A stretch of DNA of 39,774 nt from a bacterium (lineage in GTDB: Bacteria > Patescibacteriota > Patescibacteriia > UBA9934 > GWF2-40-263), in contig JAGVFR010000010.1 in assembly GCA_020057555.1 (NCBI GenBank), positions 1 to 39,774 of the forward strand, read 5' to 3'. A program made the translations under genes and the position numbers. Position 1 is the first letter of the stretch; each line of letters begins with the position of its first letter. Of this stretch, positions 22,281-22,671 are shown piece by piece. The notes beneath the pieces are model-generated. The model was given only the letters and a program-made list of their open reading frames with translations, made no database searches and was not told where the DNA came from.

Positions 22281-22309
22281 CAAAAACAAAAAACACGTCT
22301 TTGCGTGTT
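22281..22309 (-). terminator. Rho-independent terminator after the tRNA-Arg region
   Basis: AACACG (22292-22297) pairs with CGTGTT (22304-22309), and the minus strand continues TTTTGTTTTTG. It begins four bases after the CCA of the outer, interrupted tRNA-Arg-like gene. Confidence 0.7.
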
Positions 22310-22474
22310 CTGTGGTGCGCTCGACAGGGTTCGCTCGGCGAGGATAGCGAGCAAAGAATAAAACAAGGTTTGATTCCTTCAAGCGACACAGCCGTCCTGT
22401 CAGGTCGTTAGACATGACAACACCTGTGTCCTACAGCTCCGCAAGCTGTCGCTCTATCACGAGACGGAGCGAGA

Positions 22475-22613
22475 GAAACAAAAATGTCCATTCGTGTGTT
22501 TCTGGTGCACCCGACAGGGTTCGAACCTGTGGCCTACAGCTCCGCAAGCTGTCGCTCTATCCAGCTGAGCTACGGGTGCGAGTTAAAAACAAACGAATGA
22601 ACATTTTTGTTTC
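22475..22613. repeat. 20-bp inverted repeat flanking tRNA-Arg
   Basis: GAAACAAAAATGTCCATTCG (22475-22494) and its complement (22594-22613, one mismatch) bracket the intact tRNA-Arg. The arms could pair in RNA or DNA to present the tRNA in a loop, or be the ends of the inserted segment. Confidence 0.75.
22503..22579 (-). tRNA. tRNA-Arg (anticodon GCG)
   Basis: A complete 77-nt cloverleaf with encoded CCA (22503-22505). The acceptor GCACCCG pairs with CGGGTGC. The anticodon stem is ACAGC/GCTGT around loop TTGCGGA, giving anticodon GCG (reads CGC, and CGU by wobble). The T arm is ACAGG TTCGAAC CCTGT. Most bacteria read these codons with an A34-modified ACG tRNA, so a GCG tRNA-Arg is slightly unusual. 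It sits inside the pieces of another tRNA-Arg-like gene and is flanked by inverted repeats. Confidence 0.95.
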
Positions 22614-22671
22614 CGAGCGAGGCGACGTGATCTGATTCAATCAGATCCAGCTGAGCTACGAGCGCAAAAGC

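Follow-up and report, generated by a model that had tools for sequence, protein, structure and literature searches.

The window, a stretch of 39,774 nucleotides from the genome of an uncultured member of Uhrbacteria, a bacterium with a tiny genome, contains a nested tRNA-Arg locus that runs from 22665 to 22313 on the minus strand (Table 1); the strand assignment corrects that of a preliminary description of this DNA. One outer tRNA-Arg(GCG) gene is divided into three blocks, interrupted by one insert in its D loop and by another in its T loop. The preliminary description had proposed a tRNA-Arg nested within the pieces of a second one, and this arrangement is borne out to the base. It had also proposed that the three blocks rebuild a tRNA: when joined, they are recognised by ARAGORN as a 76-nt tRNA-Arg(gcg), in which the T loop is one base short; its acceptor stem has no mismatch, and paired changes set it apart from that of the inner tRNA. 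The interruption of the T loop, put earlier at about 88 bp, indeed measures 88 nt. The intact tRNA-Arg does lie in the D-loop insert, bracketed by inverted repeats as described, although these arms extend to 27 nt (93% complementary) rather than 20. The transcript of the locus has a predicted fold with z = -7.4, and none of 100 shuffled sequences folded equally well.

Table 1. Components of the nested tRNA-Arg locus, in the direction of the minus strand (positions are those of the window)
Feature	Position	Strand	Length	Description
Outer tRNA-Arg(GCG), 5' block	22645..22665	-	21 nt	GCGCTCGTAGCTCAGCTGGAT; acceptor 5' strand to D loop, ends GGAT
D-loop insert, whole	22456..22644	-	189 nt	Palindromic element with the inner tRNA in the loop of its second hairpin
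D-loop insert, left part	22614..22644	-		Hairpin P1 (pairs with target GAT), guide ATCACG, core TCGCCTCGCTCG
D-loop insert, P2 left arm and spacer preceding inner tRNA	22580..22613	-		
Inner tRNA-Arg(GCG), complete	22503..22579	-		
D-loop insert, spacer and P2 right arm	22475..22502	-		
D-loop insert, right part	22456..22474	-		Core TCTCGCTCCGTCT, right end CGTGAT complementary to guide
Outer tRNA, middle block	22422..22455	-	34 nt	AGAGC...ACAGGT; D stem 3' strand, anticodon arm, T stem 5' strand
T-loop insert	22334..22421	-	88 nt	Second member of the same repeat family as the D-loop insert; P1 hairpin, guide, core, P2 hairpin, core GCTCGCTATCCTC, right end
Outer tRNA, 3' block	22313..22333	-	21 nt	CGAACCCTGTCGAGCGCACCA; ends ACCA
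Terminator-like hairpin and T run downstream of outer tRNA	22290..22311	-		Hairpin begins at 22311

Alignment of the D-loop and T-loop inserts reveals a common layout, that of palindromic repeats of ~80-100 nt in which the elements follow one another 5'→3' as a hairpin (P1), a short guide, the core yTCGCyyCGyTCG, a second hairpin (P2), the core CTCrCTnnnCTC, and a right end whose sequence is the complement of the guide. P1 takes in the final bases of the left flank in many copies, and P2 shows many paired changes among copies. Genome G025 has a second D-type copy of ~80 nt (on C16) that is free of any tRNA; the inner tRNA therefore lies in the P2 loop of an element that is complete in all other respects. 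Covariance models trained on seven D-type and on four T-type sequences detect D-type copies in 18 of the 42 genomes of the family and T-type copies in 11, and further copies elsewhere in the phylum, in different families, classes and orders. The window's own genome has three detected copies, all in tRNA loci. Other families of the class also have the exact core of the T-loop insert (TGCGTCGCTCGG ... CTCGCTATCCTCG), located between protein genes, and two genomes (G149 and G329) contain five to seven similar copies at scattered positions. With copies in so many genomes and loci, the family behaves as a dispersed mobile repeat, and we conclude from these sequence comparisons that both inserts belong to it. 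The search of Rfam that the preliminary description had advised for the inserts matched no known RNA family, neither intron nor ribozyme. A pattern search of the whole collection with the D-type left end returned 80 loci, those outside Candidatus Uhrbacteria being apparently chance matches. In G001 (C50; L035, L052), two repeat copies are located within a larger duplicated stretch, at least one of them (L052) bounded by inverted ends, ATAGACCTCACACTATGAAAC / GTTTCATAGTGTGAGGTCTAT.

The repeats are strongly enriched at tRNA genes, and intergenic copies occur too: 27 of 43 copies in the family have an intact tRNA gene no more than 150 nt away (expected, 2.5%), a count that carries some bias in that ten of these copies trained the models, which contain a few tRNA bases. 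Insertions are found in the D loops of tRNA-Arg at GGAT^AGAGC, at the 5' terminus of tRNA-Gln at GGAT^CGTC (in many genomes), and, on the antisense strand, in the T loops of the tRNAs for Cys, His, Glu and Gly at (G)AT^CGAAC. The right end is usually a repeat of the insertion target, and the target sequence stands at the end of each unit of a tandem array. Where insertion is at the 5' end of tRNA-Gln, tRNA-Pro or tRNA-Gly, the right end duplicates the first bases of the tRNA, which therefore remains intact. The guide is complementary to the right end: among 51 automatically cut copies, guide and right end share a mean complementary run of 5.6, versus 3.5 in swapped pairs (0 of 2000 permutations), a value inflated somewhat by the choice of copies with a model that scores the guide helix (P3). 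The guide also changes with the target, both among Gln copies (GATCCGG/CCGGATC, GATCTCG/CGAGATC) and in further pairs of guide and right end (TATAGCCC/GGGCTATA, TATTTTC/GAAAATA); all of these pairs differ from one another in sequence.

Several neighbourhoods of such targets have unusual structures of their own. In G025 (C15:107000-109500, L243), positions ~780-1560 hold a tRNA-Glu(CTC) and then three tandem units, each comprising an antisense repeat in a T-loop remnant plus the tRNA 3' end, with the tRNA's own terminator in two of the three; a tRNA-Gly locus (L244) has the same arrangement in two units. Genome G005 contains two 76-nt tRNA-like genes with the Ser anticodons TGA and CGA (L037, L055), which are without a long variable arm and both have a repeat in the T loop. 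In the window's genome (G000), tRNA-Gln(TTG) is absent among the 45 tRNAs found; since tRNA-Gln is a favourite site of tandem repeats in relatives, an assembly break may explain this gap.

Another key observation concerns the identity of the tRNA that the element carries. The 45 tRNA genes detected in the window's genome amount to one per anticodon except for Met, and the inner tRNA is the sole tRNA-Arg(GCG) detected. Each D-loop insertion that we found includes an intact tRNA of the same anticodon. Inner and outer anticodons agree at all seven nested loci tested, at least five of which are independent, and same-anticodon nesting extends beyond Arg-GCG to at least four other cases: Arg-TCG, Arg-TCT, Leu-CAG and Pro-TGG. 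The degree of identity between inner and outer tRNAs ranges widely: it is 92-97% for the Arg-GCG pairs (the window, G014 and G036), 99% for Arg-TCG (G019), 99% for Pro-TGG (G002; here a T-type copy holds the tRNA in its P1 loop), 77% for Arg-TCT (G036), and 72% for Leu-CAG (G001; again in a P1 loop). For the Leu-CAG pair, the outer tRNA is the native orthologue and is 87% identical to the only Leu-CAG gene that the window's genome has; the inner one is nearer to another Leu tRNA, Leu-TAG (80%), and is therefore not a recent local copy. In the Arg-TCT pair, it is the outer tRNA that resembles Arg-CCT. The inner tRNA of G019 is likely to have arisen by local duplication, because inner and outer genes have the upstream flank TTTTxCCCTT in common. 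Lineage-specific bases are common to inner and outer tRNAs in the window, and likewise in G014, a pattern that suggests gene conversion within each pair.

When 95 relatives were searched at the DNA level, the nested locus was recovered in G014, G001, G036 and G025, and a half-deleted version, from which the outer 3' half is gone, in G002; recG and a gene for a small PH-like protein flank the locus in all of them. Five other relatives (G011, G030, G004, G003 and G012) have a plain single tRNA-Arg(GCG) between the same two genes. The comparison with insert-free relatives that the preliminary description had called for thus has its answer in these empty sites, and its concern that the assembly had collapsed across tRNA repeats is excluded by four separately assembled relatives with the nested structure and a fifth with the half-deleted one.

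The outer tRNAs have fared differently among these genomes. Joined outer blocks from the window, G014, G036 and G019 are still recognised as tRNAs. Those from G001, which has its D arm replaced and its anticodon loop occupied by a palindrome, and from G025, with an anticodon-loop palindrome and a broken acceptor stem, are not. The palindrome in question (L257, L255) reads CCTGCCTGCCGGTAGGCAGG or longer and differs from the repeat family. At the tRNA-Pro locus of the window's genome, the outer 5' half is gone; what is left is an intact Pro tRNA, half an element and a 23-nt tRNA remnant. Two further structures were seen at the Arg locus of relatives: a third tRNA-Arg copy downstream of the nested locus in G036 (C27, L254), which is 5'-truncated, begins TTGGAT|AGAGC and has its own terminator; and in G032 (C22, L264), directly upstream of tRNA-Arg(GCG) and between it and the PH-like gene, a large imperfect palindrome of ~310 nt with no relationship to the repeat of the window.

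The window and G014 agree at 31% of their 4-fold degenerate sites, a value near saturation, whereas identity is 91-95% for the cores of the D-loop insert, 95% for the outer 5' block, 88% for the outer middle block, and 82% for the P2 right arm. Such conservation of insert and outer blocks could mean that the structure as a whole is under constraint at the level of the host. Because independent insertions at other tRNAs (e.g., G019) have a core conserved to a similar degree, most of it is explicable by recent independent insertion, horizontal spread and gene conversion.

Bearing these patterns in mind, we considered whether the inserts might be introns, in which case the outer tRNA would be transcribed, and removal of both inserts, the inner tRNA being intron-encoded in the first, would yield two tRNA-Arg. 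The perfect outer acceptor stem with its paired changes relative to the inner one, the recognition of four joined outers as tRNAs, the conservation of insert cores and outer blocks far above that of 4-fold sites, and a pairing of guide, left flank and right end that resembles splice-site pairing all speak for this scheme. However, neither EndA (PF01974) nor RtcB (PF01139) was found in seven genomes of 92-98% completeness for which controls were positive, Rfam returned no intron or ribozyme, and the joined T loop here is one base short; furthermore, the core of the T-loop insert is present outside tRNAs. In our reading, the outer tRNA is inactivated and is rescued by the inner copy, because outer tRNAs have decayed in relatives (G001, G025, G002), EndA and RtcB were not found, some T-loop inserts (in the tRNAs for Cys, His, Glu and Gly) are antisense, and the intact same-anticodon tRNA that comes with each D-loop insertion found would be needless if the insert were spliced. 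From these sequence features, splicing of the outer tRNA is unlikely, so that the split or spliced tRNA raised in the preliminary description finds no support here, and we give the intron scheme as a whole very little chance of being correct.

Could the locus have arisen by ordinary decay, that is, by tandem or nested tRNA duplication followed by the gathering of unrelated hairpins in a spare copy, with no mobile family involved? The 99% identity and common upstream flank of the G019 pair fit this account, as do the lineage-specific bases common to inner and outer tRNAs in the window and G014, and the other palindromes inserted in outer anticodon loops. Yet the insert core is common to copies in many genomes and at other loci, the points of insertion are identical, and the inner Leu tRNA is not a local duplicate; the dispersed copies already disfavour decay, which we regard as improbable. 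Of the two origins offered in the preliminary description, it is the mobile segment carrying a tRNA into a tRNA that is supported, given a dispersed family, empty sites and other tRNAs affected alike; local duplication also contributed in some cases (G019). A further possibility is that the inserts are remnants of tRNA-targeting integrative elements, with the att sites of a tyrosine recombinase, lost internal genes, and tRNA pieces that represent att repeats. tRNA genes are classical attachment sites, several copies are flanked by duplicated tRNA 3' ends, and Gln copies are flanked by direct repeats of the target. Against this, the inserts contain no integrase or any other protein gene (the 189-nt insert holds a tRNA alone), att sites do not have a conserved two-hairpin core and guide, and the copies are a uniform 80-100 nt and occur in tandem arrays. 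We hold such an origin to be highly improbable.

Comparison with established systems helps to place the repeats. The ends of IS200/IS605 elements and their non-autonomous derivatives undergo guide-directed single-strand transposition (PMC6006769, PMC8266576). Like these, the repeats have hairpins at both ends, an internal guide complementary to the cleavage or target sequence, a right end that resembles the target, insertion 3' of a short target, and tandem insertion at one site; the complementarity of the guide to both target and right end carries some selection bias from the P3 helix. Unlike IS200/IS605, in which a guide tetranucleotide lies directly 5' of each end hairpin, the repeats have one longer guide between P1 and the core, 3' of P1 and 12 nt before P2, and it seems to serve both left flank and right end; moreover, the copies have no Y1 transposase gene inside or adjoining, their targets are mostly tRNA genes, and they carry tRNA cargo. 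REP and REPIN sequences, palindromes mobilised by RAYT, bear a hairpin of 20-40 nt with GTAG or CGTC as a tag at its foot (PMC3733652, PMC8266576). They too are short dispersed palindromic repeats, and many of the genomes studied here encode RAYT-like Y1 proteins, among them that of the window (G000:C13 and G000:C20). However, neither tag was found in our repeats, which have two hairpins around a conserved core in 80-100 nt and, in contrast to high-copy intergenic REPs, occur in few copies per genome, prefer tRNAs and have no link to the presence of RAYT.

Integrative elements that insert into tRNA genes and restore them, such as archaeal and bacterial elements with a tyrosine recombinase (PMC8371274), resemble the repeats in that an intact tRNA of the same identity is kept at the insertion or rebuilt from element-borne sequence; the repeats differ in being shorter than 200 nt and gene-free, in carrying a whole tRNA rather than a 3' end, and in their conserved hairpin core. 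Archaeal tRNAs with multiple introns at non-canonical positions (PMC4090602) similarly have several interruptions of one tRNA outside the anticodon loop, whereas in the window the 5' junction sits in the local hairpin P1 and the junctions do not pair as the bulge-helix-bulge of EndA introns; EndA and RtcB were not found, a complete tRNA lies within the insert, and outers are decayed. Bacterial group I introns in tRNAs are likewise structured inserts that pair with the 5' flank, but the repeats have no Rfam group I match (P3-P8 core), a far shorter core, a position outside the anticodon loop, and antisense and intergenic copies. In the open-licence literature we found no description of nested tRNAs or tRNA-targeting MITEs in bacteria that matches these tRNA-bearing palindromes. 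The repeats resemble miniature single-strand transposons and tRNA-restoring integrative elements, yet depart from each in defining features; among small mobile palindromes, both their niche and their cargo are unusual.

We consider it probable that these small, non-autonomous palindromic repeats insert at GGAT-like sites, very frequently in tRNA genes within this bacterial family, and that the D-loop copy carries a same-anticodon tRNA that rescues the broken Arg(GCG) gene. An ancestral tRNA-Arg(GCG) gene would have been hit twice, by one repeat in the D loop and by another in the T loop; the insertions would have inactivated the outer tRNA, the inner copy would have taken over its work, and the nested layout would persist through the rescue of an essential single-copy gene. 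Counting against this reading are the outer tRNAs that would still fold as tRNAs when joined (window, G014, G036, G019), the likeness of the Arg-TCT outer of G036 to Arg-CCT, the conservation between the window and G014, and the Y1 transposase counts given below. With less confidence, we hypothesize that the repeats move as folded single-stranded DNA in the manner of IS200/IS605: the guide may pair with the target and both ends, and the enzyme may act in trans. Candidate routes by which the tRNA reached the hairpin loop are local duplication in some cases and acquisition of a foreign tRNA in others. A more far-reaching proposal, which we put forward tentatively and regard as rather doubtful, is that of a gene-free, guide-directed palindrome specialised for tRNAs and equipped with same-anticodon cargo, each insertion of which replaces the host's isoacceptor gene with the element's own cargo, in some cases a foreign tRNA.

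As to the mobilising enzyme, the presence of Y1_Tnp has no association with the repeats (12 of 18 element-bearing genomes versus 16 of 23 others); the repeat ends are absent near the 30 Y1_Tnp loci searched, and no autonomous relative with a Y1 gene between the same ends was found there. These counts and flanks lend no support to a Y1 transposase as a partner in cis or by presence and absence. A reverse transcriptase (RVT_1) was likewise set aside as a partner: although present in nine of 12 element-bearing genomes, it is missing from three, and the one encoded by the window's genome, of ~400 aa (G000:C17:42500-44793, L269, 534-1736, minus strand), is probably the reverse transcriptase of a diversity-generating retroelement; similar proteins occur in most of the element-bearing genomes tested.

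One would expect an insertion in a single-copy tRNA gene to kill the cell, but these are the genes that the repeats favour. If a repeat brings in or retains, within itself, a same-anticodon tRNA, this would represent a new way for a selfish element to inhabit essential genes, and the cargo would offer a natural route to tRNA gene replacement. The nested layout would also be a source of false annotations of split or nested tRNAs in Patescibacteria. Finally, the repeats give a readable code of guide and target, in which the guide changes with the target, and a clear way to look for the enzyme responsible for their movement.
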